Shown: one piece after another, positions 3,028-53,026 of the stretch
Numbering within the stretch: the first letter of the stretch is position 1
How the letters are laid out: every line of letters begins with the position of its first letter
Virus record (IMG/VR): IMGVR_UViG_3300002835_000229
Location: 1-57,309 of that record
From: a virus
Length of the DNA stretch: 57,309 nt
Reading direction: 5' to 3' (one strand)
Made by a program: the position numbers and the translations under genes
Notes under the pieces: model-generated
What the model was told of the DNA's origin: nothing
Databases searched by the model: none
What the model saw: the letters and a program-made list of their open reading frames with translations, nothing else

Positions 3028-3031
3028 TAAT

Positions 3032-3991: not shown

Positions 3992-4015
3992 AGAGAAAAT
4001 TTTTCTAAACCGGTA

Positions 4016-4022
4016 TATTTAT
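4016..4022 (+). promoter_or_regulatory. TATTTAT element upstream of tail tube gene
   Basis: TATTTAT ends 40 bases before the ATG at 4063; the leader between them is almost entirely A and T and has no Shine-Dalgarno sequence. Confidence 0.4.
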
Positions 4023-4062
4023 AAAATAACAAAAATAAACATAAAACAAAAAATAAAAAATT

Positions 4063-4551: not shown

Positions 4552-4575
4552 AAAATATTATCAAAAAAAAATATG

Positions 4576-4606
4576 TCCCATATGGTTTATTCCGTATGGG
4601 ATTTTT
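4576..4606 (+). terminator. Intrinsic terminator after tail tube gene
   Basis: A 10-bp stem (TCCCATATGG 4576-4585 with CCGTATGGGA 4592-4601, one T-G pair) closes a TTTATT loop and is followed by TTTTTATTT. It lies 24 bases after the stop codon. Confidence 0.88.
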
Positions 4607-4651
4607 ATTTACAAAAAACATAAGTAAAGTATCTTTATTATAAAAAAGAAT

Positions 4652-7590: not shown

Positions 7591-7617
7591 AATTGTTTAT
7601 AAAAATAAATAATCATC

Positions 7618-7624
7618 TATTTAT
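7618..7624 (+). promoter_or_regulatory. TATTTAT element upstream of the 1766-aa baseplate gene
   Basis: TATTTAT ends 15 bases before the ATG at 7640. Confidence 0.4.
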
Positions 7625-7639
7625 TAATAAAGTAATTAC

Positions 7640-27991: not shown

Positions 27992-28219
27992 ATGACAGTA
28001 AGAGCATCAAACGATTGGATACAACAGTTATATGTTCAGGAGACAACTAAAAAATCTCCTGAACCTGACTTTTATAAAGATGATAATGGTAAGTTTGTAA
28101 TGACAGAATCATATCATATTAAAAGGGGTAGATGTTGTGGCTCAAAATGTAAACATTGTCCTTATGAACCTTTATATGAAAAAGGTAGTACAAATTTAAA
28201 TGAATCCTTACGAAAGTAG
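27992..28219 (+). CDS. DUF5522-like Cys-rich small protein (75 aa)
   Basis: The C-terminal half has KRGRCCGSKCKHCPYEP (residues ~44-60), the signature of the DUF5522 family, small cysteine-rich proteins common in Bacteroidota and probably metal-binding; the function is unknown. It starts three bases after the reductase stop, so it shares its transcript. Its last codons form the left arm of the downstream terminator. A role as an accessory of the reductase (redox or metal) is speculation from position. Confidence 0.78.
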   Translation: MTVRASNDWIQQLYVQETTKKSPEPDFYKDDNGKFVMTESYHIKRGRCCGSKCKHCPYEPLYEKGSTNLNESLRK

Positions 28220-28228
28220 GGATTTTTT
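28204..28228 (+). terminator. Intrinsic terminator closing the replication island
   Basis: An 8-bp stem (ATCCTTAC 28204-28211, GTAGGGAT 28216-28223, one T-G pair) is capped by a GAAA tetraloop and followed by TTTTTTATTTTT. It overlaps the stop codon of the DUF5522-like gene. Confidence 0.88.
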
Positions 28229-28265
28229 ATTTTTATATCTATTTATTCAAAAATTCACAACACTA

Positions 28266-28272
28266 TATTTAT
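28266..28272 (+). promoter_or_regulatory. TATTTAT element upstream of gp25 gene
   Basis: TATTTAT ends 5 bases before the preferred ATG (28278) and follows the terminator. Confidence 0.4.
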
Positions 28273-28277
28273 TAGAT

Positions 28278-28739
28278 ATGGCAAATGGAATAACATACGG
28301 AATAACATTTCCTTTTAATCAATCATATTTGGGTAAGTATTTAGGTACTACAGATACCACAGATGATGAGGTTAGAAGTAATTTAATTCATTTATTATTA
28401 ACAAGAAAAGGAACTAGATATTTTTTACCTGATTTTGGAACAAGATTATATGAATATATATTTGAACCACTAGACGGACCAACATTTAGTGAAATTGAAA
28501 GTGAAATTAGAGATAGTGTTGCAAGATATATGCCAGGAATATTAATAACTAATGTTAGTATTACTGAGGCAACCGCAGATATTGAGGAACCTGGAGCAAC
28601 TTATATAAACTCTGAAGGACAAAGAGAATTTAGGGTACCTGGATTGGCACAAAAAGAATATACCGCAAAGGTTAAAATTGATTACAAAATAACAAATTCG
28701 GCTTTTGAGTCCAGTGATTTCGTTATATTAAATATTTAA
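28278..28739 (+). CDS. Baseplate wedge protein gp25-like
   Basis: From the ATG at 28278 the protein has 153 residues, near T4 gp25 (132). An upstream ATG at 28200 would add 26 hydrophobic residues, lie inside the previous gene and span the terminator, so I reject it. Core family features: LLTRKGTRYFLPDFGTRL (residues ~42-60; the RxxxP-x-FG-(S/T)-x-L signature), EPLDGPTFSEIESEIRDSV and a closing beta hairpin. gp25 joins the wedge to the sheath and starts sheath assembly. It heads the wedge block and is followed nine bases later by gp6. Confidence 0.93.
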   Translation: MANGITYGITFPFNQSYLGKYLGTTDTTDDEVRSNLIHLLLTRKGTRYFLPDFGTRLYEYIFEPLDGPTFSEIESEIRDSVARYMPGILITNVSITEATADIEEPGATYINSEGQREFRVPGLAQKEYTAKVKIDYKITNSAFESSDFVILNI

Positions 28740-28748
28740 TAAAAAGAT

Positions 28749-30587
28749 ATGGCAGAGAAAAAAATATCATACACGGTAAGGGACTTCCAAGGGATTAGAA
28801 CGGAGTTAATAAATTTTACAAGACAATATTATCCAGAGTTAGTCCAAAACTTTAACGATGCCGGTATATTTTCGGTTATGTTAGATTTAAATGCTGCGGT
28901 AACAGATAATCTACAATTTCATATAGATAGAAGTATACAAGAGACCGTTTTACAGTATGCCCAACAAAGATCGTCGGTATTTAATATTGCAAGAACTTAT
29001 GGATTAAAAGTTCCCGGACAAAGACCGTCAGTAACACTAGTTGATTTCTCAATCACAGTACCTGCGTTTGGGGATAAAGAAGATTTAAGATATTGTGGTA
29101 TATTAAGAAGGGGAGCTCAGGTTAATGGTTCCGGACAACCTTTTGAAACGGTATATGATATTGATTTCTCATCGGCAGTAAATGCTGAAGGATTCCCAAA
29201 TAGATTAAAAATTCCTAATTTTGATTCTACCAATAAGTTATTAAATTATACAATTACAAAACGTGAGGTAGTTGTTAATGGAACAACAAAAGTTTTTAAA
29301 AGAGTTGTTACCGCAAATGATGTCAGACCATTTTTTGAGTTATTTTTACCTGAAAAAAATGTTCTTGGAGTTACAAGTGTTTTAATTAAGGAAGGTACTC
29401 AATACGCAACAATACCACAACCTCAAGAATTTTTAGGATTAGAGAATAGATGGTATGAAGTTCAAGCTTTAATGGAAGATAGAGTTTTTGTTGAGGATCC
29501 AACAAAGGTATCGGATCGTCCTGGAATTAAAGTTGGTAAATATGTTGTTACAAGTGATAAATTTATTACTGAATATACTCCAGAAGGTTTTAAGAAACTT
29601 ACCTTTGGTGGTGGTAATACATCAGCCGAAGACCAATTAAGGTCGTTCACAAGAGACGGATTATCTTTTGACTTATCTAAATATTCTAATAATTTAGCGT
29701 TAGGGTCAGCACTTAAGGCAAACTCAACATTGTTTATACAATATAGAGTTGGTGGTGGTCAAAATAGTAATTTAGGCATAAATGTGATTAATCAGATAGG
29801 TACCGTATCATTCTTTGTTAATGGACCATCCGAAAGTGCAAATAGAAGTGTTATTAACTCATTAAGATGTAACAATTTAACTGCGGCAATTGGAGGGGCA
29901 AACTCACCAACAACAGAAGAAGTTAGACAAATGGTTTCATTTAACTTTGCGGCACAGAATAGAGCGGTAACAATTAATGATTATGAATCAATAATAAGAA
30001 CAATGCCGTCCCAGTTTGGTGCCCCAGCAAAAGTAACAATCACGGAAGAAAATAATAAAATAAAGATTAAATTATTGTCTTATGATGATGACGGTAAGTT
30101 AACTGAAATTTCTTCAAATACATTAAAACAAAACATTGCAAATTATTTATCAAACTATAGAATGATAAATGACTATATTTCGGTTGAAAGTGCTAATGTA
30201 ATTGATTTAGGGGTAACTGTTGATGTTGTTTTAGATGCCAGTCAAAATCAAGGTTCTTTAGTAACACAAATAATTGACATTGTTAGTAAGTATTTTGCGC
30301 CAACAAATAGACAAATGGGTCAGAACGTATATGTATCTGAAATTAGAAGACAAATACAAGACCTAAGTGGTGTTATAAGTATCTCAGACATACTATTCTT
30401 TAATAAAATTGGAGGACAATACTCATCATCACAAACATCACAAAGATATATTGACCCGGAAACAAAACAAATTGAATTAATTGCCGACACAATCTTTGCT
30501 GAACCAACTCAAATGTACCAAATTAGATTCCCAAATAAGGATATTAACGTAAGAGTTCTTAATTTTAAAGGTATTAATTTCTCCTGA
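28749..30587 (+). CDS. Baseplate wedge protein gp6-like
   Basis: The 612-residue protein has gp6/baseplate-J layout: an N-terminal helical part (YTVRDFQGIRTELINF, then LDLNAAVTDNLQFHID and an alpha helix ending YGLKVPGQRPS), a middle beta domain that varies, and a C-terminal domain with AQNRAVTINDYESIIR (~398-413), the typical gp6/gpJ signature, and a closing beta-alpha fold. Two copies per wedge form the inner ring that closes the baseplate and triggers contraction. The order gp25-gp6 is as in many contractile systems. Confidence 0.92.
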   Translation: MAEKKISYTVRDFQGIRTELINFTRQYYPELVQNFNDAGIFSVMLDLNAAVTDNLQFHIDRSIQETVLQYAQQRSSVFNIARTYGLKVPGQRPSVTLVDFSITVPAFGDKEDLRYCGILRRGAQVNGSGQPFETVYDIDFSSAVNAEGFPNRLKIPNFDSTNKLLNYTITKREVVVNGTTKVFKRVVTANDVRPFFELFLPEKNVLGVTSVLIKEGTQYATIPQPQEFLGLENRWYEVQALMEDRVFVEDPTKVSDRPGIKVGKYVVTSDKFITEYTPEGFKKLTFGGGNTSAEDQLRSFTRDGLSFDLSKYSNNLALGSALKANSTLFIQYRVGGGQNSNLGINVINQIGTVSFFVNGPSESANRSVINSLRCNNLTAAIGGANSPTTEEVRQMVSFNFAAQNRAVTINDYESIIRTMPSQFGAPAKVTITEENNKIKIKLLSYDDDGKLTEISSNTLKQNIANYLSNYRMINDYISVESANVIDLGVTVDVVLDASQNQGSLVTQIIDIVSKYFAPTNRQMGQNVYVSEIRRQIQDLSGVISISDILFFNKIGGQYSSSQTSQRYIDPETKQIELIADTIFAEPTQMYQIRFPNKDINVRVLNFKGINFS

Positions 30588-30662: not shown

Positions 30663-33600
30663 ATGCCTAAATCATATAGAATAAGAACGCAAGTCGGTGT
30701 AGACAAATCAATCAAGGTTAATTTAGATCAAGATTTTGATAGCCTCAATATACTATCATTAAAAATTCTACAGAGTGATATCTATAACAGACAATGTTCT
30801 GATTATGGCGTTGTTGTTGGTAGAGTTTTTGCCAACGGAGGATTTGGATTACCAAACGCAAGAGTTTCAATTTTCATACCGGTTAGTGATGAAGATTCCA
30901 CAAATCCGGTAATTAGTGAGTTATATCCATACACTACTTTATCGGATGTTAATGAGGATGGTTATAGGTATAATCTATTACCTAAAAAACCTTCATACAC
31001 CGGACATGCGGCAACTGGAACTTTCCCAGATAGAGGTGAAGTTTTATTAGACCAAACATATGTTGAAGTATATGACAAATATTATAAATTTACAACAAGA
31101 ACTAACGAAAGTGGTGATTATATGATATTTGGAGTTCCTCTTGGAAGTCAAACAATTTTTAGTGATATTGATTTATCCGATATGGGTTGTTTTTCATTAT
31201 CACCACAAGACCTCATTCAAGCAGGACAGGCAACAGAATCACAAGTAAACGGGTCAAAATTTAAATCATCAACAAATTTAAATGAATTACCCCAAATTAA
31301 AACATTAAATAAAATTGTTGACATATCTCCATTATGGGGAGAACCTGAAATATGTAATTTGGGTATTACAAGAGTTGATTTTGATTTGACATCTGAAGCA
31401 AATGTATCAATCAGACCAACCGCAGTTTTTATGGGGTCAATAATCTCAACAAGTGAGGATGATGCGTTAAGGGTAAGTTGTAAACCAAAAAATAACACCG
31501 GTAATTTATGTGAGTTAGTAACCGGACCAGGACAAATACTAGCAATAAGACAAACAATTAATAGTGACCAGGACGGTTTACCAATATTAGAGGAATATAA
31601 GTTAGAACAAAACGGGAAAGTAATTGACGGTGATGGTTCATATTTGGTTAATGTACCTATGAACTTAGATTATATCTACACCAATGAGTTCGGAGAACAA
31701 GCAATTTCAAATGACCCAAAAATAGGAATACCAACTAAAGGTAAATATAGATTTAAATTTAAATGGGAAAATGAAGGTGGACTACAGAATGAATTTTTAA
31801 GAGCAAACTTCTTTGTACCAAATGTTAAAGAACACGGTTGGACAACGTCTTCATATAGTAGCGACCCAATTTATAGTTCTGGAGAAACATCACTTTCATT
31901 TACCGTAAACCCATTAAATTTAGTTGATTTATTTATTATACCATCTTCCGGTGATTTAGTTTTACCTGTTCTAACGAACGTAAGTTCTTTTCAGGTGGCA
32001 ATCTCACCAACACTAATTCCATTATCGCCACAACCTTATTTAGGTGATTTAACTAATGGTATTACAGGATTATCTGCCGGTAACGCAATTTTTATAACTT
32101 TTGTACCAACAGATCCCACATTACCATCATCAATTTCATATACCGGTATTAATGGGGCACCAAACGCAACTTTTTCAATACCAGGAGGACCAATATCCGG
32201 GGCTTTTATTATTACAACAGGTGGGGGAATGATATTTGACAATACAGTTAATACCTCTAGTTATAGTATTCAAATTGATTCTGGTAGTGGACCACAACCT
32301 TATTATGGAGATATTCAACTAATTCCAGTTAATAGTGGTGATGTGGTATATGTTACACCAACATTTATTGACCCGAATACTCCGGCAACAGTATCCTACA
32401 CTCTTTACTCTCAAAATTATTTTGATTTGTTAAGGTCATACACTTTTAGTTTAGATTGGGATGATTATGTGGATTCAACCTCAGCGATTAATTGTGAAGA
32501 TACCTTTTATGAATTTAACTATAATAAAGTTTATACCACCGCAATGTTTTTGGACCGTTATAAAAACGGTATTGGTAGAGCAAAACACTTAGGTATAAAA
32601 GAAATTGATAATAGAACTTGTAAATCAACCGTTAATACATTTCCGGTTAACGATGTTATAAGAAATTTTGATTTTTTATTTTTTATATTTAACCTATTGA
32701 TGTCAATATTGGTATTCCCAATTATGACTTTATTATTTGTTGCTCACTTTATTGCATGGGTATGGCCAGTGTTAAAATATCTACTAATTGTTTTAGGGTT
32801 TTATTTTGGGTATATTGCAATTAGAGAAGGTATAGATACAATAAACTCAATTTTTGAACAAGCGGCGGTTGCAATTCCAGGGGGACCAATTTTCAATATC
32901 GGTGTAATATTAAGAGTTATTGTTCAAATATTAGGGATTGTGTTTAAAGTTGGTTTGTCTTTGGCGTTTATCGGATTTACCATTGCATATTTAATACCAA
33001 TTGATAATTTTCCTAGAATAGGATTACCTATGTTAGCATATCCTGACTGTTCAACTTGTGATTGTGAATGTGGAAATGCAGATATGTCTGAAGCAAATGA
33101 CATAACCACAGATAGTGTGAATGGTGAAATACAGGAAGCCGGGCAGTCAGCATCAGGAGTTGATTTACCTGTTGGTGTACCAACTTCAGCATCAACCTCA
33201 AACTCATTTTTAGTTCCCATACAAGATATATCAACATTTAATGGGGAACACCCAAACTTAAGTCAAATGGACGGGTTTGATACAACCGATGGAGATGGTG
33301 GATATTTTTATTGTAATGGTGTACTTGGACAATATAAATCTTTTACATATTCATTGTCTGACCAAGACATTGAATCAAATGTTGTAACCGCCGCTATATT
33401 AGGGTACCAAAGATTAATATCAGGTAGTGAATCTTTAGATGTTGGTAACGATCAAACAGGTATACCAGATAAAAAATATTTACACGCACCACAACCATTT
33501 GTGTTTGCTGCGGATAGAGCTTCTGGAGTTAATTTTAGAACATTATCATACCCTATTTCAGAAACATATGCACAAAAATTAAATGAATTTAATTTAAGAC

Positions 33601-36530
33601 AAAAATATTTTGATGGAGTTAATCAAATGGAAGTTAAATTTAATTTTAATAATAATCCAGGTAAAAAACATTATGACCAACCTTTAATTTTACTTGCAAA
33701 ACCAGGAACCATTTCCCAGTTAGGTATTGGACAGATATTCTCATTCCAAGACCCAAAACTCTCTAATTGTAATAAAAATATTACAGGAGCAACTTTTTAT
33801 AACTCATTTAGTGGAAATACAGATAATCAATTTGGTAACCATTCTTTAACCGGAACTTCACAAACTGGATTATTTGTTCCAATACAAGTGAACTGCGCTA
33901 ATCCGTCAAATAACTCATCAAATCTCCCAACAGTATATTATGATATAATACAAACAGGAAGTAGTGAAAACTTTTTAAGTAGACCAATTGACATTGAATA
34001 TTTTCAGGTTATTACGGGTTATACCTACTCCAATTTTTTAACTAATGCGTCTTACACCATAACGAACCCAACAAGGTTTCCCCAAAAATATTTAAATCAC
34101 GATTCAGTTATTGTTTATGAAAATGAATGTAATCCTTATTTGAATAATTCTCCAAATTATATCAACAATCCAGACGTTATAACAAATGCTGCTGGTTATG
34201 GTAATTATGAAATAATTATAATTGCTAGAGGTGTTGACCCATATAGTGAAAAACAAAGAAATAAGTACGATTTATCTAGAATTTTTGGTAATACGTCATA
34301 CGGTTCTTCTTCGGCAATAATTGAAGGTGACTATTATTTAAATGTGCCTATTCAAGGGTATACGTCAGGTAATAAACCAAAAAGTCATAATATTGTATCA
34401 AATAATACTGCACCAAATCTTTATTTTGAATCTTATAATTTTAAAATAAGTCCTTCTTATACAGATGTTAATGGTTTTATTAGAAATGAATATACCGGGT
34501 TTACATCAACGTTACCTTATTATTATTTATGTTCAGATGATTTTACTGTTTCAGGTGTGACATCATATAAACCAGATGCTGGATTTCCAACAATTAATAA
34601 TTTAAGTTCAAATGGATATAACGTTAATTCTGTTCAAAGAGGAAACGTGTTACCAACACCTTTGGTTGGACCAAACCCTAATAACGCAACATCAAATTAC
34701 TATTTTGCGGGAGGGTCATTTATTGGTTCACCAAACTCATCAAATACATATGGGTTTGGAACCACCTTTGGTAGTTCAAGTGGTGACAAAGAAATATATT
34801 GGCCTTGGACACCTATTAGACGATATGCGGTATATTCTCCGGCCTATTACAAATACATTGGTTCAGCATTAACTTCAATACAATATAACGTTTCTTTTGC
34901 AACACCAACAACACCACAGTATTTGGTTATGAGAAGTGATAGAATACCAACATCCACTAAAACACAAGATGGTTATTATGGTAATACTGGATATGGATTA
35001 CACCAAAACAATTTTTTTACATATTATAAAGGAAGTCAGGGGGCATCACCATCAATTGGGGTTGCACCAGACCCAAGTGCGGGACAGACAGTTTACGATG
35101 AATCACCATTAGTACAATCACTAACGTCAACTTTAACTTGTGACGGCATGGTTTCACTACAATGTTATCAAGGTACTGGAACAGGAATAACCGTTAATCA
35201 AAATTGTGATGTTCCTTCAGACCGGGTTAAACAAGGGTGTTATTGTTTGTTAAATAAAAAATACTTATTGGAGTATGGTGATGATGTTAAATTATTTTTA
35301 GAGTGGAAAACAAGATTTACAATGACATTTGCGGCTTGTAGGGGAGTATTCTCACAAACATTCCAAAACAATTGGATTAATGGGGTTTTATATATGTTTA
35401 CCTTTAATAAGAGTACAACATATAAGTTAAATCAACCTGATGAACCAATATATAATTATTGTAAAGATACGGTAATATTTAATAAATTTAATAATGGATT
35501 TTACTATAGAAGTTCTCCTTGGGATGGAACTGATTTTATTGGAGTTAATTCACCACCACCAAGCCCATTTATACCAGTAGAACTTATAACTGAATACCCA
35601 GGATTAGGGTATAATAACCAAAGAATCCAGTTCCCAACCACTGTTATGGATTTAGGGCCTAGAGATAGTTTTATTAGTGAAATATGTAATGATGGAAACT
35701 TTAATGGATATATTGCCGACCAAATTAGATCAACATCATATAAAGATAATTCAGACATAATACAAATGGGATTCATATCTAGATTATTAAATCAAAGTGT
35801 GATAGACCAAATGTTTCCGGTAGGAAATCCTAATGGTGGAAGTAGTGAAGGTAAAGGAATTATACAATTCTTTAATAGTACTAGAGATGGTGAAAGAATT
35901 GATGGTGATATCGCACAAGCGTTATCGATTAATTCTGAGTGGAGAGTTACACCTTATTTGAATGAAAATTATAGAGATTTTGATTTATTCATTGGTGATG
36001 ATGGGGTTGGAGCTAAACCAAGACCTGTATTTGGAGTTTTCTTTTCTTCTAGCACTGAAGAATACCAATATAGAAGGAGATTAAGTCCGGGTATTGAAAC
36101 TTACGCTAGTTCTTGTGGTAATTTAACATCTTATTATGGTTATCCTAACGACCAAGTTGTCCCACATTATAAATGGAAAATTGCGGGAGCATCAAATAAC
36201 ATTTTTGGTACTGAAAATAATAACTGGGTTACAACATCTAATCAGAATGTTTCCGGTTTAGGGTTCTATAGTCAAGAATATCAAAACTTAGATTTTAATA
36301 ATCCTTTAGAATATTACCAAGCAGGTACAAATCACGGATTTATAACTAGGTTTAATATTAATGGCAATCCTGTACCATATATTGCAAACCCAAACCCAAC
36401 AATAACACACGGGACACCAAATGGAAATCCAATAATAGTCGGAGCACCATTCTTCTTTTACTTTGGGTTAAATAACGGAAACACCGCAATTGATAAATTC
36501 ATAAAACTTTATGTTGAAACTGCAGAATAA
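30663..36530 (+). CDS. Giant wedge/tail protein with internal hydrophobic membrane-like segment (1955 aa)
   Basis: Directly after gp6, where a large wedge protein (as T4 gp7) is expected. Residues ~50-165 look like a carboxypeptidase-regulatory-type beta sandwich (VVVGRVFANGGFGLPNARV, with ESGDYMIFGVPLGS). Residues ~670-780 hold three or four long hydrophobic stretches (such as LFFIFNLLMSILVFPIMTLL and VILRVIVQILGIVFKVGLSL), strong enough to be membrane helices. They are followed by a Cys cluster (C796, C799, C801, C803). The C-terminal 1100 residues are beta-rich and Asn/Ser/Tyr-rich. It may place a segment in the host membrane or pack it inside the baseplate; I cannot choose from sequence. 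Confidence 0.75.
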   Translation: MPKSYRIRTQVGVDKSIKVNLDQDFDSLNILSLKILQSDIYNRQCSDYGVVVGRVFANGGFGLPNARVSIFIPVSDEDSTNPVISELYPYTTLSDVNEDGYRYNLLPKKPSYTGHAATGTFPDRGEVLLDQTYVEVYDKYYKFTTRTNESGDYMIFGVPLGSQTIFSDIDLSDMGCFSLSPQDLIQAGQATESQVNGSKFKSSTNLNELPQIKTLNKIVDISPLWGEPEICNLGITRVDFDLTSEANVSIRPTAVFMGSIISTSEDDALRVSCKPKNNTGNLCELVTGPGQILAIRQTINSDQDGLPILEEYKLEQNGKVIDGDGSYLVNVPMNLDYIYTNEFGEQAISNDPKIGIPTKGKYRFKFKWENEGGLQNEFLRANFFVPNVKEHGWTTSSYSSDPIYSSGETSLSFTVNPLNLVDLFIIPSSGDLVLPVLTNVSSFQVAISPTLIPLSPQPYLGDLTNGITGLSAGNAIFITFVPTDPTLPSSISYTGINGAPNATFSIPGGPISGAFIITTGGGMIFDNTVNTSSYSIQIDSGSGPQPYYGDIQLIPVNSGDVVYVTPTFIDPNTPATVSYTLYSQNYFDLLRSYTFSLDWDDYVDSTSAINCEDTFYEFNYNKVYTTAMFLDRYKNGIGRAKHLGIKEIDNRTCKSTVNTFPVNDVIRNFDFLFFIFNLLMSILVFPIMTLLFVAHFIAWVWPVLKYLLIVLGFYFGYIAIREGIDTINSIFEQAAVAIPGGPIFNIGVILRVIVQILGIVFKVGLSLAFIGFTIAYLIPIDNFPRIGLPMLAYPDCSTCDCECGNADMSEANDITTDSVNGEIQEAGQSASGVDLPVGVPTSASTSNSFLVPIQDISTFNGEHPNLSQMDGFDTTDGDGGYFYCNGVLGQYKSFTYSLSDQDIESNVVTAAILGYQRLISGSESLDVGNDQTGIPDKKYLHAPQPFVFAADRASGVNFRTLSYPISETYAQKLNEFNLRQKYFDGVNQMEVKFNFNNNPGKKHYDQPLILLAKPGTISQLGIGQIFSFQDPKLSNCNKNITGATFYNSFSGNTDNQFGNHSLTGTSQTGLFVPIQVNCANPSNNSSNLPTVYYDIIQTGSSENFLSRPIDIEYFQVITGYTYSNFLTNASYTITNPTRFPQKYLNHDSVIVYENECNPYLNNSPNYINNPDVITNAAGYGNYEIIIIARGVDPYSEKQRNKYDLSRIFGNTSYGSSSAIIEGDYYLNVPIQGYTSGNKPKSHNIVSNNTAPNLYFESYNFKISPSYTDVNGFIRNEYTGFTSTLPYYYLCSDDFTVSGVTSYKPDAGFPTINNLSSNGYNVNSVQRGNVLPTPLVGPNPNNATSNYYFAGGSFIGSPNSSNTYGFGTTFGSSSGDKEIYWPWTPIRRYAVYSPAYYKYIGSALTSIQYNVSFATPTTPQYLVMRSDRIPTSTKTQDGYYGNTGYGLHQNNFFTYYKGSQGASPSIGVAPDPSAGQTVYDESPLVQSLTSTLTCDGMVSLQCYQGTGTGITVNQNCDVPSDRVKQGCYCLLNKKYLLEYGDDVKLFLEWKTRFTMTFAACRGVFSQTFQNNWINGVLYMFTFNKSTTYKLNQPDEPIYNYCKDTVIFNKFNNGFYYRSSPWDGTDFIGVNSPPPSPFIPVELITEYPGLGYNNQRIQFPTTVMDLGPRDSFISEICNDGNFNGYIADQIRSTSYKDNSDIIQMGFISRLLNQSVIDQMFPVGNPNGGSSEGKGIIQFFNSTRDGERIDGDIAQALSINSEWRVTPYLNENYRDFDLFIGDDGVGAKPRPVFGVFFSSSTEEYQYRRRLSPGIETYASSCGNLTSYYGYPNDQVVPHYKWKIAGASNNIFGTENNNWVTTSNQNVSGLGFYSQEYQNLDFNNPLEYYQAGTNHGFITRFNINGNPVPYIANPNPTITHGTPNGNPIIVGAPFFFYFGLNNGNTAIDKFIKLYVETAE

Positions 36531-38287
36531 TGGGAATAGATAGTCCAACAACAATAGTTTTAGGGAGTTTACGAAATAAAACCGCAACTGATACTGATGG
36601 TTCTGAAAAAATAGTTTTAGAAGGAACCAATAAAGAAATTGTGGAATATGAAAGAACTATTGATGTAAATGCGTTACAAGTTTTTGATGATGAAAGACAA
36701 GAATCGGAAATATATAGACCAACATCAAAATACGATGTTATTTTTAAAAACGCATATTCTGGTATCACAACATACCCACCATATAGGGATTATTTATATT
36801 ACGTAAATATTGAAGAAAGTGCCGGACAAGTATTATGTGGTACCCCATTTAATATTGTTCCTTGGTTTGGATACCCCCAATACTCTGAGTTTGATTTTGA
36901 AAGAACGGACAACTCAAAAGTTGGATACACTTCAGGATTAAATAATCATCAAGATTTTTTAAATATTAGTGCAACAACATATAATTGGACACATTATTTA
37001 AGTTACCCATTTGATAATGACTATAACCAACAGTTATTTGCAAATGACCCAACCAGTTTAACAACTTGGAATTGGGTTGCGTCAGATGGTATACCCTTTG
37101 TTATTATTTCTAACTCTGATAATATCATTAGATTTAAATGTCCTATGTCACACGGGTTAATTACCGGTGAGTACGTACAGTTGTCTTTTGATTATAACGG
37201 AACCACAGTTTTTACCGTAGATTCTTTGGGTGATGGTGGATCTGGTAGTGAGTTTGTAATGTTTAATTTATTCAATATTGGTTATTTAGGAACAACATTT
37301 GATGTTGGAGTAACAGGAACCTTTAAAAGAGTTTTAGACCCAATTAACTCCGGAGAAACAACATCAAAGTATTATGTTAGAGTTAATAAAATTTTAACAA
37401 ATTCAGAAGATGCAATTTTAGTTAAAGCGGCTTTTGAACAAAACATTTTTAACGGTAAAAGTAAACTTGAAAAAGTTTTATCCGGTTTTACACCAACCTT
37501 AACGGTATTAACCCCACCTACATTACCAAGAACCTCAATTTTAGAAGGAAGTCAAAGTTATACATTATCTTTTAATAGAGATATTGATGTATCATTGTTA
37601 ATTGATAATCAAAAACGACCAATAACGGAACTATTCTTTACTACTATTTGGAAAGGTTATTATGGATGGACAGATAGATTAAAAAAAGGACATTACTTTA
37701 ATGTGTATCTTGATAGTTCTATTCCAAACCAATGGTGGGATTTAACAAACCCATTGTCTGACTCAACTATAGTAAATATTCCATACACCTCAAACTTAGG
37801 GTTTGGACCATTTTATTATAATCAAGATTTATTTTCTGGGGATACTATAGATGGTGACTATTGTGAGTGGAATGACTATGAGCAACTTGAAAGAGTAATA
37901 TCAAGACAAATTAATAAATTCACATTTAATCAAAGTTGGTTTACTCAATTAGATTCTTCACCAAACACAAATAAATTTGGTTATTACTATTATCCACATA
38001 ACCCAATAAAACTTAAAGTCTATTCTGATTATGTGGAAGAAGGGGACGCTCTTACGGTAGAGGGAATACCAAATTATGCGTTCTACTCAAATATGTCAAA
38101 TAGTTTTAGATGGAGAGATATATATCCATATGGGTTTGTTGACAATTTAGGGAACGGAGTAGATTACCCGTTTTCAAACGGAAGACATTATCCGTTTAAA
38201 AATACAATATTCAGAATTTTTTCTGAAGGATCAGGAATTGCTGATATAACACAAATTGCAGAACCTACGATAGATGAGTGTGAGTAA
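36530..38287 (+). CDS. Structural protein of the wedge block, unknown (585 aa)
   Basis: Not recognised by name. The start overlaps the previous stop (TAATG), and its end overlaps the next gene by 14 bases, so it is part of a tightly coupled chain from the wedge to the fibres. It is a soluble, beta-rich, Tyr/Asn-rich protein with a WKGYYGWTDRLKKGHYFNVY region (~385-404). No signal peptide or enzyme motif is visible. A wedge or peripheral baseplate protein (gp8/gp10-like role) is the best guess from order. Confidence 0.75.
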   Translation: MGIDSPTTIVLGSLRNKTATDTDGSEKIVLEGTNKEIVEYERTIDVNALQVFDDERQESEIYRPTSKYDVIFKNAYSGITTYPPYRDYLYYVNIEESAGQVLCGTPFNIVPWFGYPQYSEFDFERTDNSKVGYTSGLNNHQDFLNISATTYNWTHYLSYPFDNDYNQQLFANDPTSLTTWNWVASDGIPFVIISNSDNIIRFKCPMSHGLITGEYVQLSFDYNGTTVFTVDSLGDGGSGSEFVMFNLFNIGYLGTTFDVGVTGTFKRVLDPINSGETTSKYYVRVNKILTNSEDAILVKAAFEQNIFNGKSKLEKVLSGFTPTLTVLTPPTLPRTSILEGSQSYTLSFNRDIDVSLLIDNQKRPITELFFTTIWKGYYGWTDRLKKGHYFNVYLDSSIPNQWWDLTNPLSDSTIVNIPYTSNLGFGPFYYNQDLFSGDTIDGDYCEWNDYEQLERVISRQINKFTFNQSWFTQLDSSPNTNKFGYYYYPHNPIKLKVYSDYVEEGDALTVEGIPNYAFYSNMSNSFRWRDIYPYGFVDNLGNGVDYPFSNGRHYPFKNTIFRIFSEGSGIADITQIAEPTIDECE

Positions 38288-40308: not shown

Positions 40309-41217
40309 GTGGCTACAGGAAATTATGGAACAATAAGACCATCAGATGTAAGTCCTGACGATGTTGAGATAATATTGAATTATACACCGTCTAGAGATAA
40401 CACTGATAATTTTTTACTAACAAAGTTAGACGCTAAAACTATATTGAAGCCGTATTTTCATAATGCAGATACTGGTGGAAACGCAAATGTTGAATTACTT
40501 GGTGGTTTATATAATTTAAAATTACCAGCAGACCAATTTAATAAACTTGGTATTTATACATTATACATAAGACCGGCAGAAATAAGAACTACAATCACTG
40601 ATTGTGGTGTTTTATCGGCATTACCAAATGTTAAAGGAATTGTTATTGATATTAATAATGTTCCGGTTGATTACAGAAATAAATTTATTAATCAAGGATT
40701 AATAGGTTTCAGAGTTGAATATTTAAATGCGAATGGAACTAAAATACCTAATTTCTTTAGGATTATTACCTCATCATTTTATTGTGAACCTGTTTATCAA
40801 AACTTAACAAATACTTCACAAAAATCTATTAGATATAGATATGTTGAGAGTAGTACTAATTTATTATTTTGTACTTTATCACCATCAGCATCGCCAACTA
40901 ACAAACCAAGTGCAACACCGTACATTGGACAACCAAACCAAAATATAATAATAAGTAATACCTTCTTTAACCCAATCACTACTGAGATAGAGATTGTTGA
41001 CCAAGACATCTCAACACTTGCAATTGCTCTTTATGGTAATCAAACTAAATCAATTGATGATGGTATTTACACAATTTACGACAATCAAAATAACATTTAT
41101 AAACAATACAATCTATACGAAATTAAGGACCAGTTTAATGAATTATTATATGAGGTTAGACAGGATAGAGGAACTAATATAGATTTTAGTAAAAGTTTTA
41201 ATAACATAACAGGATAA
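40309..41217 (+). CDS. Structural protein, unknown (302 aa, GTG start)
   Basis: Starts at GTG 40309 with MATGNYGTIRPSDVSP; no ATG gives a better N-terminus. The N-terminal ~190 residues form an Ig-like beta pattern (GGLYNLKLPADQFNKLGIYT, IYIRPAEIR). A Ser/Pro-rich spacer follows (PSASPTNKPSATPYIG, ~207-222). The C-terminal ~85 residues end in a helix and a YEVRQDRGTNIDFSKS tail. It overlaps the next gene (TAATG). It is probably a spacer or connector protein at the base of the fibres. Confidence 0.7.
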   Translation: MATGNYGTIRPSDVSPDDVEIILNYTPSRDNTDNFLLTKLDAKTILKPYFHNADTGGNANVELLGGLYNLKLPADQFNKLGIYTLYIRPAEIRTTITDCGVLSALPNVKGIVIDINNVPVDYRNKFINQGLIGFRVEYLNANGTKIPNFFRIITSSFYCEPVYQNLTNTSQKSIRYRYVESSTNLLFCTLSPSASPTNKPSATPYIGQPNQNIIISNTFFNPITTEIEIVDQDISTLAIALYGNQTKSIDDGIYTIYDNQNNIYKQYNLYEIKDQFNELLYEVRQDRGTNIDFSKSFNNITG

Positions 41218-44216
41218 TGGCAATTAATAAATTTACTTGTCCACCACAGGCCTCAGGCCAAGGATCGTTCTCAGACAACTTAGTTGGATTCCAATTAATT
41301 GATGGGGGAGGATTTACGCAAGGAAATTTTGAATTTACTACTGGTATTTCGGAAAAACAAGATAGAAATTTTGAGATAGGTGTCTTTTCTGACCCTATGA
41401 GTTTAACAAGTATGAATATTGAGGATGTTGAACAATCAAAAATGTTAATTGCGAATAATTTCCAAGTTTATCCAAATTATGATTTAACCCAAATAACAAA
41501 TTTTACATTATATGGTTCGTTAGTACTTAGAGTTTCTTCGTCTATTAGAAAGATTATTAATTTTTTTCCTGCTGGGTTAGAAGTTCTAAATTATAGACCT
41601 GATTATACAACTGGATATACTGCAGTTAATATTGTTTATGACAGTGTAGAAAATGAAACTTATTTTGATTTAGATATATCCGCAATAAGAAACCCGTTTG
41701 GTATTGATTATACAACAAATGCGGACAAAAACATTCTTTCATCTGAAATATCAATATCCCAGTTAAGAAATTTAAAACAAAATTTTAACAAATATGGTTT
41801 ATTTGTGAATGGTGGGGTCTATTCAATAAATGAGATAGTTCCCACAACCGAAAACGATCAGTATCTAAGAATTTATGTTATTGGAGAACCATTCCCAAAT
41901 AAATACCAAACTGAAGAAGATATAATAATAAGACCTACCGATTTTTATGTTAATAAAGTATTTAATGAAGATTTAGATGCGGTTGAAAACTTCTTACTTA
42001 ATAGACAGAATTACCCATTATATACCGCATACTTTCAAGTACCGGTTGAAAATGAAGATGGGACATATACGTTTAGTTACCAAACATTAAGATTTCCTAC
42101 CGATGGAAAATGGAATTTGGACCTTAGAACCAAATCTTTTGAGAATTACTTATCGGAATTAAATAAATTTGCAACAAATTTTGATTCATATAAAACAAAT
42201 TTAATCTCTAGATTTTTAACTACCGCATCCCTAAAAGAATTTGACACAACAGATAAAAAACTTGAAAAAGTTTTACAATTATATGGTAGAAGTTTTGACG
42301 AAACTAAAAAATTTATAGACGCTCTTGCAAATATGAATTCAGTTAGGTATAATGTTAAAAATGACATACCATCACAATTACTTAGAAATTTAGCACAAAC
42401 TTTAGGATGGAAAATAAATATGTCCCCTATTAGTGAAACTGAATTATTAGATTCCGTATTTAAGGGGGCTGAAAGTAATTTTAGTGGAGTCCCTATTGGA
42501 CAAACTCCGGAAGAATTAAATTACCAATATTTTAGAAATCTTTTATTAAATTCTGCCTTCTTATTCAAATCAAAAGGAACTAGAAAATCTATTGAAATAC
42601 TAATGAGATTGATAGGAGCTCCGGAATTTTTAGTTGAGTTTAATGAACATATATATGTTGCCGACCAAAGGATTAATATTAATGACTTTGAAACAAAATA
42701 CCTTTCAATATCTGGAGGAACCTACGTTCAACAAATACCGGTATTAGATTACACCGATGTGTATTCTATTATGGGAGTACAATATACTGGAGTTACATTA
42801 TCAAGTATAACTAGGGATGTTAGTGTTACTCTTTCTGATTACCCCATAGACCAATTTGGTTGCCCCAGCATGCCAGTTGAAAGTGACACATATTACTTCC
42901 AAATCGGAGGAGGGTGGTTTGAATCAACACCACAACATAGAATGCCGGAAAAGATAGATTTGACAACAAGTGTGTTTACCGGAACAAATCCTTCATATCA
43001 AACAAAATTATTACCATTTAATTATGGTGAAGAATATCTACAAAGATACAGACAATTCCCCTATATGGATATGGGATTCAGATTGAGAAAAATTGTGGAT
43101 AATAAAAAAAGTTGGACAGACCACGAAAGTATTTTAAGAAAAAGTTCTGATGGTAATTTTAATGCGTATTATCCAGTTTCGGAAGACTGTTTAGTTCTTA
43201 ATGTTAAGAATGTTGATATCATGTTAAATCCAAGTTTAGGGTTGGTCTATGATGTATGGTCTATGTCTAGATTATATAATTACCCAATACCTAATCAAGG
43301 ATTAAATTATGTTGAACCAACATATTGTAACCCAAACCCAAACACACCATACCCTAAAAGGGGTGGTATTGATTGGACTGAAATTATACCTAAACCAAAA
43401 GAAAAAACATTCTTTGAATTTGCCCAAACTTTTTGGCATAATACAATTAATGTTAGAAATAGACAATTCATAACTGACGGTAAAACCGGTGGTTATCCTA
43501 CATTACAATCAATCTATTGGAAATATTTGGAATCAAAACAAACTGTTAACATCCCAAATGATAATTTCACATATCAAACAATGATTGATTATGTGAATGG
43601 TCTTGGAGATTATTGGATTAGATTGGTAGAACAAATGGTTCCAGCAACAACAATATGGAATACCGGAGTTAGATTTGAGAATTCAATTTTCCATAGACAA
43701 AAGTTTGTTTGGAGAAGACAATACGGATGTCAAATTGTTCCAATACCTTGTAAACCTTGTCTTTTAACTTCACAATTATTTGCTTTTGATTGTCCCACCC
43801 AGTTTATTGAATGTGGGTTATATCCTTGGACAAATAATCCAAATATTGTTTCTTTTGGTACTATATTGGCAGAAACTTTAAATAATTATTTATTGGCGAA
43901 TGGTTTAACTTTAAGTGATTGTTTATTAAATACAATTGTTGTTCATTGGTATGTTGATTTAAGATTAAACGGAGTTCCATTAACTATAGACCTATTTACA
44001 ACAACAAGTGGGTATTCTGTAATACCAACAAATTCTGAATGGGTGAGCGGATTAACCCAATCTTTAAATAATTTACAAAATGACGGACTAACTTATTCTA
44101 TTGATGAGGAAAATAATTCCGTAACTGTTTTTAACATAAATTGTACACCACTTAGCCTTGACGATACGTTTGAGATTAATGTTGGTTTGGACTTTAATAT
44201 ACTGTGTAATCAATAA
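41217..44216 (+). CDS. Large tail connector/fibre-base protein (999 aa)
   Basis: The middle (residues ~330-500) is helical and carries NLLLNSAFLFKSKGTRKSIE-type sequence followed by RLIGAPEFLVEFNEHIY. This K-x-KGT-(R/E)-x-(A/S)-I pattern is seen in tail proteins that link baseplate and fibres (gpI-like proteins of many contractile and siphophages). After residue ~860 it has CKPC and a final Cys-bounded domain that resembles the end of the next protein. The ATG overlaps the previous stop and its own stop overlaps the next ATG. It is probably the platform on which the SprB-repeat adhesin is mounted. Confidence 0.72.
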   Translation: MAINKFTCPPQASGQGSFSDNLVGFQLIDGGGFTQGNFEFTTGISEKQDRNFEIGVFSDPMSLTSMNIEDVEQSKMLIANNFQVYPNYDLTQITNFTLYGSLVLRVSSSIRKIINFFPAGLEVLNYRPDYTTGYTAVNIVYDSVENETYFDLDISAIRNPFGIDYTTNADKNILSSEISISQLRNLKQNFNKYGLFVNGGVYSINEIVPTTENDQYLRIYVIGEPFPNKYQTEEDIIIRPTDFYVNKVFNEDLDAVENFLLNRQNYPLYTAYFQVPVENEDGTYTFSYQTLRFPTDGKWNLDLRTKSFENYLSELNKFATNFDSYKTNLISRFLTTASLKEFDTTDKKLEKVLQLYGRSFDETKKFIDALANMNSVRYNVKNDIPSQLLRNLAQTLGWKINMSPISETELLDSVFKGAESNFSGVPIGQTPEELNYQYFRNLLLNSAFLFKSKGTRKSIEILMRLIGAPEFLVEFNEHIYVADQRININDFETKYLSISGGTYVQQIPVLDYTDVYSIMGVQYTGVTLSSITRDVSVTLSDYPIDQFGCPSMPVESDTYYFQIGGGWFESTPQHRMPEKIDLTTSVFTGTNPSYQTKLLPFNYGEEYLQRYRQFPYMDMGFRLRKIVDNKKSWTDHESILRKSSDGNFNAYYPVSEDCLVLNVKNVDIMLNPSLGLVYDVWSMSRLYNYPIPNQGLNYVEPTYCNPNPNTPYPKRGGIDWTEIIPKPKEKTFFEFAQTFWHNTINVRNRQFITDGKTGGYPTLQSIYWKYLESKQTVNIPNDNFTYQTMIDYVNGLGDYWIRLVEQMVPATTIWNTGVRFENSIFHRQKFVWRRQYGCQIVPIPCKPCLLTSQLFAFDCPTQFIECGLYPWTNNPNIVSFGTILAETLNNYLLANGLTLSDCLLNTIVVHWYVDLRLNGVPLTIDLFTTTSGYSVIPTNSEWVSGLTQSLNNLQNDGLTYSIDEENNSVTVFNINCTPLSLDDTFEINVGLDFNILCNQ

Positions 44217-46525
44217 TGAGTTATATTAATTTTATATCGTTTACTGTTACTGGAGATTGTGGTAATCTGAGTGTTGGTGAAATGTCTTTCACTATAACCG
44301 GAGACTCACCTACTTGGATTGTAACCGAAGGACCACCATATACTGGTTTATTACCTTTGTCTGGTTTAACACCTGGAGATGAAACCTATTATGTTGGTGG
44401 ATTAAGTGCCGGAACATACTCAGTTATCGTACAAGACACCGCACCAACCGGCCCAACACCACCATTTAGTGTAACAACAACATTTAATATTTCTTCAGGT
44501 ACTACCGTTTATTTGGATGCGGAAGGAACTACTTGTGGTTTAAATAATGGTTCATTAACTGGTTATACCGGAAATTTTTATGGTAATTCATCATTTTATT
44601 TATATACACTTTTAGGTGATTATGTAACAAGCGCTCAAACACCTTATAATATTGGATATGTTATTTTTCCTAATTTATCTGCCGACACTTATTATGTTAT
44701 TGGTGATGATGGTGGTGGTTGTACTGGGAGAAGTGAATCGGTAATAATTAATGTAAGTAGTTCTTTTGATTATGGTTATTATGCCGTGGACGATGCGAGT
44801 TGTATAAACAACCAAGGTAGTGGTAAAATATACTTAACAGGACTTACAACACCAACAAGTGCCTACACAATTAATTGGATATCAAATGTTAATGGTCAAA
44901 CAGGAACAACCGTAACCGGATTAACACAAGGGTTATATACGGTCGAAGTTACCGACACAATCGGATGTATAGTTCAAAAAAACATTCAAATAGTTAATGT
45001 ACCTAAAATAGGTATAGGAGCAACATATATTACATCACCAGGATGTTTCCAAAATAACGGAGAAGTAACGGTTGTTGTTACTGGAGGAACCGCACCATTC
45101 TACTACTACGCCTCAAATGGGGATGACTTTATTGGTTTTGGTACATCACATACATTTACAGGATTAACCAATGGGATATTAACAATAACGGTAACTGACG
45201 CTGGTCTATGTAATGACACAATACAAGTTAATCTTGTTACACCAAATTCTTTTGGTGTTGTAAATGTCGTTACAACAAATTCAAATTGTAATTCAAATAA
45301 CGGATCGATATATATAACAATTAATAATGGAGTTGGGACTGGTAACTACAATTATACTATTTCTGGGTCTAACGGAACAAATCAAGTAAATGTTGCCGGA
45401 GGACTATCACAAACATTTCAAGTAGGTACTGGGGACTATGTGATTTTAATTGATAATGGGGCGGATTGCCAATATACTGGAACAACAAGTGTTTATAATG
45501 TTGATAAATACACAATAACGGGTTTAACTCTTAATACGTCTTGTGGTTTAAATAATGGAACCATAAAAACATCGGTATCAACGGGGGCAGTTTATCCTTT
45601 GTCATATCAGTTAGTGGGTCCAATAGGTAATTCAATAACCACAACACAATTAAATGGTAATTTTAGTGGATTACAAGCGGGTACTTATAATTTAACTGTT
45701 ACAGACGCAACTGGATGTCAACAAACAATACCAATATACATTGCACCATCAAGCCCTATGTATTTTGATTTTATGACCTTTAATCCGGTGTTTGGTAACG
45801 ATGGTCAAATAAATGTTTTAATAACAAGTGGTACACCACCATTCTCATATACTTGGACTGGTAATGTGGGGGTACAAACAGGGATTGTAATTACAGGATT
45901 AACATCGGGAGTGTATAGTTTAACAATAGTTGATGATAATGGTTGTTCATTTACAAGAATTGTGAAATTAAAAGGTACTGAACTTTTTGGAACATACTCA
46001 GTGTTCAATATATGTGAACAAAATTTTGAAGATTCTAACATTGTAGGTAAAAGAGGTATTTTACAAATGTTTAATGAAGGGTTTTACGATTTAACTTCCG
46101 GAGATACAAATTGTATTGTTAATTCTGCGGAATTTAACTTACAAGTTATTGTTGGTGGTGATGAATTAATTGAAACAATATATTATTCTACAGGACTTGA
46201 TGATTACCCAAGTGAAGTTGTGTGGGCTGATTCATTAATAGAAATGTTACAAACATTTGTTGGTATTGGAGATGTAACAATAGATTATGTTAACAACAAA
46301 ATAACAATAACTAATGATTGTGAAGAGATTATTAAAAATTGTAGAACAAAAACTTACAATTTATTAAATGATACTAAAATAACGGTTAATTTAATTATCA
46401 ATTACGATATATCTTGCGTGGCGTGTGAACCAACACCAACTCCGGACATTCCAATTAATGCAATTATTACTAATAATAATGAATATATGGAAACTGGTGA
46501 TGATGAATATTTACAATATAATTAA
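44216..46525 (+). CDS. SprB-repeat tail adhesin (769 aa)
   Basis: Residues ~98-586 are about seven tandem Ig-like units of ~70 residues, each starting near C-x-x-NNGS and ending in GLxxGxYxxTVTDxxGC. This is the SprB repeat (PF13573 type), known from the Flavobacterium gliding adhesin SprB and other Bacteroidota surface proteins. Good units are INNQGSGKIYLTGLTTPTSA and the one containing TGGTAPFYYY and GLTNGILTITVTDAG. The C-terminal ~150 residues (after FGTYSVFNICEQNFED) are a different Cys-containing domain shared with the previous gene's end, followed by a PTPTPD tail. It is likely a fibre that contacts the host surface. Confidence 0.83.
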   Translation: MSYINFISFTVTGDCGNLSVGEMSFTITGDSPTWIVTEGPPYTGLLPLSGLTPGDETYYVGGLSAGTYSVIVQDTAPTGPTPPFSVTTTFNISSGTTVYLDAEGTTCGLNNGSLTGYTGNFYGNSSFYLYTLLGDYVTSAQTPYNIGYVIFPNLSADTYYVIGDDGGGCTGRSESVIINVSSSFDYGYYAVDDASCINNQGSGKIYLTGLTTPTSAYTINWISNVNGQTGTTVTGLTQGLYTVEVTDTIGCIVQKNIQIVNVPKIGIGATYITSPGCFQNNGEVTVVVTGGTAPFYYYASNGDDFIGFGTSHTFTGLTNGILTITVTDAGLCNDTIQVNLVTPNSFGVVNVVTTNSNCNSNNGSIYITINNGVGTGNYNYTISGSNGTNQVNVAGGLSQTFQVGTGDYVILIDNGADCQYTGTTSVYNVDKYTITGLTLNTSCGLNNGTIKTSVSTGAVYPLSYQLVGPIGNSITTTQLNGNFSGLQAGTYNLTVTDATGCQQTIPIYIAPSSPMYFDFMTFNPVFGNDGQINVLITSGTPPFSYTWTGNVGVQTGIVITGLTSGVYSLTIVDDNGCSFTRIVKLKGTELFGTYSVFNICEQNFEDSNIVGKRGILQMFNEGFYDLTSGDTNCIVNSAEFNLQVIVGGDELIETIYYSTGLDDYPSEVVWADSLIEMLQTFVGIGDVTIDYVNNKITITNDCEEIIKNCRTKTYNLLNDTKITVNLIINYDISCVACEPTPTPDIPINAIITNNNEYMETGDDEYLQYN
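44507..45973 (+). repeat. Tandem SprB-type repeat array (about seven units)
   Basis: Protein-level repeats of roughly 70 codons, strongly diverged at DNA level. Unit ends near residues 180, 260, 340, 428, 508 and 586 are marked by the (V/I)TDxxGC or equivalent motif. Confidence 0.75.
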
Positions 46526-47837: not shown

Positions 47838-49616
47838 ATGGAAACTTGTTTTAAATTGCTTTCTTGTGATGGGTCTTATAATCCATTTAACTCTAATAAT
47901 CCTAATTTATCTGGGTATGTTGATACATTTATTACCATTGATTTATTAGGTCCTTTAACAGGAACCCCAGAAACCCAATTTTTAGTTAAAAATTTAGGTG
48001 AAATTGATTGTGTTACAGGACAAACTTTTAATATTATTAGTAGTGCCGAAACTTGTGATTGTCAGTGTTATATTTTTAAAACGCCCGAAGAACCAATATT
48101 AACCACATATGTTGATTGTGACTATAATTTGTTAGAGGTTTATTTACCTACAGGAAAAACAACAAACTTATGTAGTGTCATTAAACCAATTTTTGATATT
48201 GGAGATCCTTTACCAATAAAGTTAGGGGGAATATGTGTTAGTGGGGATTGTCCAAATTACGACATGCCTGTTACTATTGAACCCAGAAATGAATGTGACG
48301 TACTTACAATATTTCCTATGGGTGTTGATTGTATTATCCAAAATCCAACTAACGATAGAACATTTGACGGAGCGGCAGCATTATCAATTACCGGAGGAAC
48401 ACCACCTTATACGGTAATTTGGGATAGTGGAGGTATTGCACCAACAATATATAATTTAAATGCTGGTTCATACGGAGCAACCGTAACCGATTTTTATGGT
48501 GATTTTATTATTAACACAATTTGTGTTTTAACTGCCGAAACAACAACAACCACAACAAGTACAACAATAAAACCACCTATCGAATATAGTGATTTATGTG
48601 GAATTGCAACAATTAGAAGCAAAATAATCGGAGTACCCATTGACTATGTACAAATACAATTAGAACCTAATGGGGCAATTAACGGTAAAGAAAGTTGGAT
48701 ATCCCCAGACACCCAATATTTATTATCTTGGATTACCGGAGCAACAAACCAATGGGTTTTAACTGGATATCCATCACCATACATTAATATCGTAAACGCA
48801 AATCCGGCAACACCACCATTAACTGGATGGCAAGTATTAGGAGGAATAGAAGTTTATAATTTTACACTTATTAGTGGAGACTGTACAAGTGATAGTTTGG
48901 TAGGATTTAACTTAACCAAAAATGACCCTATTTGTGGTAATAGTGGAAGCATCCTTATCCAGGCTTATGGTGGAACTGGAATTTATGAATATTCAATTGA
49001 TAATGGGATTAATTATACCTCAAACCCTATGTTCCAGAATTTAGGTTCAGGATCATATGTTGTTTACGTGAAAGATTCTAATGGAGTTACATTTCTTCAA
49101 AATGTGTCATTAATACAACAACCAACAACAATTTATACAGTTGAATTAAACGTAAATACGGCAACAAATACATTTAGTATTAATTGTCCTTTATTATTAC
49201 CAGGAGACACATTAACGTTTAATTTAAATAATAATAGTAATTTACAATATTACCCTAACACTCTTTCACCAGTACCTTTATATAATAATGTTGTTACTAT
49301 AAATGGTTTTGGGCCAATGACTTTAGTAACAACAAACAATTCACAAAATGTTTTAAGTTTACCTTGTTCTATAACACCAATAACTCAATTACAACAAGTA
49401 AAAGCATATAGTAATCAAATAACATTAAGTTATGGTCAAACAATTACAGGTTCTTTTACCAATAGTTTAGTAAACTACTCACCTTTTGGTTATTGTGTGT
49501 TAGCACAAAAAAATTATCAATTATTTATGACAAATGCAAAAATTAATAATTGTAAGTGTTGTAGTGTTATTATAAAAAACCCACCGTTATCTACCCCTAT
49601 AATCGTAAAAAATTAA
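47838..49616 (+). CDS. Modular fibre protein with SprB-like units and Thr linker (592 aa)
   Basis: Layout: a Cys-rich N-terminal part (1-155), a SprB-like unit (~162-232, SITGGTPPYTVIWDSGG), a Thr-rich linker (~234-246), a module starting INGKESW with a later NQWVLTG (~252-355), a second SprB-like unit (~365-430, IYEYSIDNGINYTSNPMF), and a C-terminal beta domain with CKCC near the end. The NGK...W module is shared with the inverted fibre gene at 53025. It has neither enzyme motif nor membrane segment. It is probably a distal fibre or adhesin that recognises the host. Confidence 0.75.
   Translation: METCFKLLSCDGSYNPFNSNNPNLSGYVDTFITIDLLGPLTGTPETQFLVKNLGEIDCVTGQTFNIISSAETCDCQCYIFKTPEEPILTTYVDCDYNLLEVYLPTGKTTNLCSVIKPIFDIGDPLPIKLGGICVSGDCPNYDMPVTIEPRNECDVLTIFPMGVDCIIQNPTNDRTFDGAAALSITGGTPPYTVIWDSGGIAPTIYNLNAGSYGATVTDFYGDFIINTICVLTAETTTTTTSTTIKPPIEYSDLCGIATIRSKIIGVPIDYVQIQLEPNGAINGKESWISPDTQYLLSWITGATNQWVLTGYPSPYINIVNANPATPPLTGWQVLGGIEVYNFTLISGDCTSDSLVGFNLTKNDPICGNSGSILIQAYGGTGIYEYSIDNGINYTSNPMFQNLGSGSYVVYVKDSNGVTFLQNVSLIQQPTTIYTVELNVNTATNTFSINCPLLLPGDTLTFNLNNNSNLQYYPNTLSPVPLYNNVVTINGFGPMTLVTTNNSQNVLSLPCSITPITQLQQVKAYSNQITLSYGQTITGSFTNSLVNYSPFGYCVLAQKNYQLFMTNAKINNCKCCSVIIKNPPLSTPIIVKN
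48537..48570 (+). repeat. ACA-rich triplet tract (Thr linker)
   Basis: ACA/ACC codons encode TTTTTTSTTI between the first SprB-like unit and the NGK module. Confidence 0.7.
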
Positions 49617-52994: not shown

Positions 52995-53026
52995 AAATAC
53001 CATCTTTTTAGGTGGTATTTTTTTTT
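52995..53026 (+). terminator. Bidirectional intrinsic terminator between convergent genes
   Basis: A 10-bp stem (AAATACCATC 52995-53004, GGTGGTATTT 53011-53020, one T-G pair) has a T-run on the + strand (to 53026) and A-rich sequence on the other side, so it can serve the RuvC-like gene and the opposing fibre gene. Confidence 0.85.

Follow-up and report, generated by a model that had tools for sequence, protein, structure and literature searches.

A hydrophobic block in the middle of a giant protein encoded in the baseplate region is the hallmark of a protein family designated here as X. With a probability of about 0.45, this block forms helical hairpins by which a virion protein of the baseplate region inserts into a membrane, doing work that is usually done by tape measures. 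Its first segment keeps the hydrophobic character while sequence identity drifts, and presence of the block and hydrophobicity of the tape measure are inversely distributed in the measured records. The virion location of X, hairpin topology, exposure on firing, and insertion into a membrane are the parts of this reading that we infer.

Gene X and Its Neighborhood

The window, by which the whole analysed stretch of 57,309 bases is meant, is a virus record and probably a piece of a larger phage. It contains a contractile-tail region with sheath, tube, a hub-like protein, and gp25- and gp6-like wedge proteins. Gene X (30663–36530, plus strand, as are all segments and motifs within it) is an ORF for 1955 aa in the baseplate region and has hundreds of relatives in IMG/VR. 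Located directly upstream of it is a gp6/Baseplate_J-like wedge protein (28749–30587, plus strand), preceded by a gp25-like baseplate wedge protein (28200–28739, plus strand), and just downstream is a 585-aa protein with no function assigned (36530–38287, plus strand). Residues 1–395 (30663–31847) form a conserved N-terminal core common to the whole family. A CarboxypepD_reg-like stretch in the core of X relatives was weak and below the cut-off.

In 27 of the 30 family representatives, gp6 is immediately upstream of X, and the order gp25-gp6-X is conserved. The exceptions are L263, with only 246 bases of upstream sequence, and L191 and L193, which have sequence available there but no gp6; the latter two are also the members without the block. 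A homolog of the 585-aa gene follows X in most representatives with enough sequence, the block-less ones included. Judging solely by this conserved gene order, X would be a structural component at the base of the phage tail.

No Pfam or PHROG family matched X. When X was compared by tblastn with 50,697 phage records, 0 matches were obtained, and near relatives of the window may be absent from that collection; three diverse X relatives also gave 0 matches there. The sheath of the window, used as a positive control, matched 2,581 records of the same collection. As far as such similarity searches reach, the X family is absent from the searched GenBank phages. The sheath (3–2960) has at least 985 aa and is bigger than the sheaths of cultured relatives seen here, and it is mainly its C-terminal third that matches most cultured phages. 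Two 824-aa sheath homologs are coded nearly in tandem (2464–4935 and 5953–8424) on L309, a 484-kb phage (AC No. LR756508).

Hydrophobic Block

Kyte-Doolittle means in windows of 19 residues are hydrophobic over residues 665–721 (peak 2.45) and 735–781 (peak 2.35) of X. The first-pass annotation had described hydrophobic stretches followed by CxxCxCxC in the 1955-aa protein after gp6, and these were located as segment A (residues 669–721, 32667–32825), segment B (residues 736–781, 32868–33005), and the Cys motif (residues 796–803, 33048–33071). The block placed by it at 32669–33075, that is residues 669–804, is present there, but as two segments joined by the short polar linker REGIDTINSIFEQ and not as one run.

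When X was shuffled, the best 19-residue window (2.45) was matched in 514 of 20,000 shuffles and is not extreme, while the best 53-residue window was matched in 3 and the best 113-residue window in 0 of 20,000. The block is thus beyond chance by its length, not by its peak. On a biological hydrophobicity scale, residues 671–694 (−0.7) and 756–775 (+0.77) stand out. Of 31 ORFs of the window, X alone exceeds a 19-residue mean of 1.8, and the second-highest value is 1.49. TM-like runs were found in two of 67 ORFs of at least 300 aa on the genome of a 223.7-kb relative, X being one of the two, and in three of 53 such ORFs of a 138.5-kb relative. The block combines high mean hydrophobicity with low helical moment, as TM helices do, and X has TM-like helices inside a soluble tail-region protein.

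In a monomer model of residues 1–860 (mean pLDDT 53), the block is predicted as helical at residues 671–735 and 746–777, with pLDDT of about 47–79 and below 50 in the linker. The membrane-helix character ascribed to the block earlier was upheld by its high hydrophobicity, low helical moment, predicted helices, and hydrophobicity kept despite drift.

The model of residues 782–1955 has mean pLDDT of 62, and about 600 well-predicted residues at 842–1460 (33186–35042) are well formed, with no fold relative detected. Fold searches with residues 782–1955 gave nothing at E ≤ 0.001 in PDB or BFVD and no VIA match at Z ≥ 2. For residues 1–860, a viral turret protein fold was the best candidate (E 1.3e-3), but it came from a weak model and was not used. 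Profile searches of PDB sequences gave no match for residues 1–860 and two weak ones (E 0.61 and 0.81) for residues 782–1955.

Relatives of X

Five queries over viral and genome contigs revealed 273 X loci. The N-terminal core is held by 261 ORFs of at least 600 aa, of which 205 are complete; these represent 132 distinct proteins in 29 clusters at 80% core identity. A loss of hydrophobicity in close homologs, which had been named beforehand as an observation that would tell against a membrane role, was looked for, and the hydrophobic block was kept in 129 of the 132 distinct complete relatives (26 of 29 clusters), always after the same core. It is 30–125 residues long and comes after a conserved FPxN-like stretch. 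With the run of L175 counted as its block, L247 is the only one of the 132 that has another run of at least 1.8 outside the block region.

Three relatives were scored as lacking the block, one of them (L009) solely because its frame is broken into two ORFs. The other two are L191 (766 aa) and L193 (732 aa); L191 appears to jump straight to the conserved NNWINGVLY motif, which is at 35367–35393 in X. With L193 as query, no more block-less relatives were found in IMG/VR, and in bacterial genomes only those already known were recovered (1/395 and 1/286). Segment B is lost in the L131 group, which has the first half of the block only. A compact relative of 830 aa, L317, which is outside the 132, has a short hydrophobic stretch between the core and the C-terminal part. 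Two family members were found in one Bacteroidota bin, G013 (C55 and C209; L317 and L319): the compact protein of 830 aa, with its short block, and one of 732 aa that has none.

In 40 representatives at 88%, pairwise identity averages 0.79 just ahead of the block and 0.71 just behind it, against 0.52 within segment A and 0.32 within segment B. In segment A of all 40, the hydrophobic fraction is 0.67–0.81 and the charged fraction does not exceed 0.09. Segment B is looser, with a hydrophobic fraction of 0.35–0.75, and the low end of this range probably comes from the shortened L131 group. Silent and replacement differences from two close relatives are 14:8 and 8:7 in the block and 243:107 and 279:118 in the rest of X; by these ratios, the block is somewhat less constrained than the remainder of the protein.

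These data bear on a serious competing explanation, which we nevertheless rather doubt: that the block is a buried structural core in which X copies are packed on each other, on gp6, or on the 585-aa neighbor, with no lipid contact. A very large protein with 17 invariant Cys residues would fit a rigid assembly, and a partner, gp6, is at hand immediately upstream in 27 of 30 representatives. Packed cores, however, usually conserve their residues, while the block varies in length from 30 to 125 residues and drifts faster than its flanks and yet stays hydrophobic.

Cysteine Residues

X has 25 Cys residues, and 17 of them are invariant in all 71 full-length relatives, so the cluster at 796/799/801/803 is one part of a Cys-rich protein. 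Four Cys within eight residues occurred in 24 of 20,000 shuffles of X. C796, C799, and C801 are present in 71/71 full-length relatives; C803 is present in 58 and absent in 13, and C1528 (35244–35246) is present in the same 58 and absent in the same 13. In the wider family, 133 rows were counted, 91 with both motifs, 41 with neither, and one with the first only; both cysteines occur in 63 of the 91 rows and neither in 28, with 0 mixed. On the core tree, C803 and C1528 each change three times, always together, although only two of these change pairs are on supported branches, too few for significance.

The co-change speaks for a putative C803–C1528 disulfide or a site shared by the two rather than for four Cys residues that form a metal site by themselves. 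Also, the motif CxxCxCxC was found in 16 of 29 clusters and the block in 26; together with the co-change, this indicates that cluster and block are not one device. The idea of the cluster as a single metal site, proposed in the first-pass annotation, is therefore weakened, both by the co-change and by relatives that have the block but not the cluster; C796, C799, and C801 could yet bind metal. Disulfide networks in the contractile tail and baseplate are described for phage Milano in excerpts of the published report (PMC10811340).

Tape Measure

The tape-measure protein of the window (667 aa, 5587–7590, plus strand) has no hydrophobic run, its maximum being 1.02. A profile comparison linked it to the Mel-JY01 protein that occupies the tape-measure slot, at E 3.4e-8 and a probability of 95%. 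Its match to the tape measure annotated in Flavobacterium phage immuto was weak (E 1.5e-4, probability 51%), and no PHROG matched it. X itself was considered as the tape measure and rejected, as it has no PHROG or Pfam match and this separate protein is the tape-measure homolog.

Homologs were found in the records of all ten large relatives and in 11 of another 30 records, which include many short ones. In the window and these 10 and 11 records, no run exceeds 1.47 (one of the 11 is partial), and the maximum is 1.63 in L192, a block-bearing MAG relative. No run above 1.8 is thus present in 23 of 23 block-bearing records, one of them partial. Three outgroup phages without X, which are related via gp6, hub, or sheath, have runs of 2.24, 2.37, and 1.92 in their tape measures or in the protein at that position, and their proteins after gp6 lack such runs; absence of X was judged there by profile search, which alone is weak proof. 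On the contig of the block-less L193, the tape measure has three runs of up to 2.11. The other block-less member, L191, was left out of this comparison, its tape measure ending at the contig end.

All 23 block-bearing records (one partial) and four block-less cases fit the inverse pattern with 0 exceptions, a count in which the four are few, the 23 are related, and shared ancestry is ignored. Since the tape measures have hydrophobic runs in the related phages without X and not here, their work seems to have moved to X. Were the block a buried core, this inverse relation would be a coincidence. It is not a general rule, as phage T4 has runs in both gp29 (residues 228–258, 2.2) and gp7 (residues 878–908, 2.07).

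Host and Lineage

SprB repeats, which we take from the Pfam name to be a Bacteroidota gliding-adhesin repeat, were recognized in two tail-region proteins of the window (44216–46525 and 47838–49616). These proteins are possibly host-derived adhesin parts, and the repeats suggest Bacteroidota hosts. The MAG relatives of X were binned with Bacteroidota, Cytophagales, Wolfebacteria, and Mycoplasmatota, and some may be mis-binned. Three proteins of the window are unusually rich in Cys: those coded at 47838–49616 (22 Cys), 49640–52315 (25 Cys), and, on the opposite strand, 53025–54398 (21 Cys). The last one has no family match.

Like the group of the window, the moraphages are large myophages from aquatic habitats that have gp25, gp6, sheath, and tube; they are jumbo phages of Bacteroidota in which, according to excerpts of the original paper, the authors found no tape-measure gene (PMC12619734). 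The product of 5587–7590 is a tape-measure candidate for phages of this kind. Two genes common in moraphages were searched for in the ten large relatives, some of which are fragments: Lys-tRNA ligase (PF00152) was found in 0/10 and ClpA-type ATPase, by its N-domain only (PF02861), in 0/10. The window was therefore not placed among moraphages.

Comparison with Known Systems

T4 gp7 is a known protein in the same gene position. Like X, it is encoded directly after gp6 and has a hydrophobic run; unlike X, it has 1032 aa and a single run near the C-terminus. The note in the T4 record (L336, 5061–8159) reads "C-terminus is predicted integral membrane domain", and the protein is in solved baseplate entries. 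It follows that a hydrophobic run need not mean membrane insertion, and this supports a buried core; the T4 run is, however, nearly identical in a second solved gp7, which speaks against that explanation for the drifting block of X. The assertion that a protein in wedge position should not need hydrophobic stretches was too strong, as T4 gp7 has one. Homology of X to gp7 was not detected (hhalign of the profile of residues 1–860, E 0.46, probability 0.1%, no match).

Another candidate for a gp7 counterpart was the 999-aa protein at 41217–44216 (plus strand), which is without a hydrophobic run and has a KGT-type domain in common with a 1336-aa Microcystis phage protein. Its KGT-type stretch is similar to gp7 by eye, and the candidate was rejected with hhalign E of 0.074 and probability of 0.8%. 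Large proteins after gp6 with no strong run are S-RIM50 gp7 (6405 aa, 1.49) and a 3342-aa protein of Munch (1.71). A literature search of open-licence PubMed Central papers for a baseplate protein with such a role found nothing on the X family.

TM-like segments in a tail protein are shared by X with the tape measures of immuto, Mel-JY01, T4 (gp29), and TP901-1. A role at the membrane or during assembly is assumed for such segments of tape measures. From TP901-1 tape-measure deletions, the authors favored a chaperone or assembly role for the hydrophobic segments, as stated in excerpts of their paper (PMC5099701). By analogy, an assembly chaperone could bind to the block and keep X soluble up to its incorporation. 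We regard this as the most improbable of the explanations considered: length and number of the segments vary widely, relatives without the block exist (L191 and L193), and a chaperone gene was not recognized, with the conserved 585-aa neighbor as no more than a candidate.

Contractile systems can also be anchored in a membrane before firing. In the bacterial thylakoid-anchored contractile injection system (tCIS), baseplate or fiber components are extended to contact the membrane, as X may be; anchoring is via Cis12 and Cis13 according to excerpts of the report (PMC8894136). The block could correspondingly seat X or its precursor in the membrane of the infected cell, for baseplate assembly there or for an action late in infection. 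This is improbable in our opinion, as gene X lies among tail genes, and as the tCIS elements differ in design: excerpts of the same report give the TM helix at the C-terminal end of the fiber-like Cis13 and for Cis12 no TM domain, only a putative amphipathic helix (PMC8894136), while the block of X is mid-chain between conserved soluble parts.

A precedent for the preferred reading, hairpins that insert into a membrane, is gp9 of phi29. Its hydrophobic loops are bundled in the knob of the mature phage and form, after genome release, a helix barrel with a hydrophobic outer surface, as described in excerpts of the structural study (PMC6542822). Like these L-loops, the block is a mid-chain hydrophobic insertion in a soluble tail protein, with folded flanks and long helical stretches. 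Differences are that gp9 is an axial knob protein of a short non-contractile tail and that its pore is known by structure, while X is known from sequence.

Proposed Role of the Block

As phi29 gp9 loops do, the hydrophobic alpha-helices spliced into the soluble, Cys-rich body of X would be folded away as hairpins in the free particle, and firing of the tail would expose them. The exposed hairpins would enter a membrane of the host envelope and assist in breaching it or keep the tail attached there. With an even number of crossings, the conserved regions that flank the block, linked by pairing of C803 and C1528, would be left on one side. The more specific proposal of an inner-membrane pore could not be retained: no evidence points to a given membrane, and the run of T4 gp7 is in a solved baseplate component. 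Since a baseplate remains external to the outer membrane, X would have to relocate to reach the inner one.

How DNA of contractile-tailed phages passes across the inner membrane is an open question. The block of X is defined and alignable, has natural long, short, and absent versions, and has an inverse partner in the tape measure, which makes a testable comparison. It is conceivable, though on balance unlikely, that in this sizeable uncultivated group of myophages a module for breaching membranes has moved out of the tape measure and become part of a giant baseplate protein, in the form of a set of hydrophobic hairpins that varies. If true, the baseplate would supply the membrane segments used for entry, and these would arrive around the tail tube and not from inside it.
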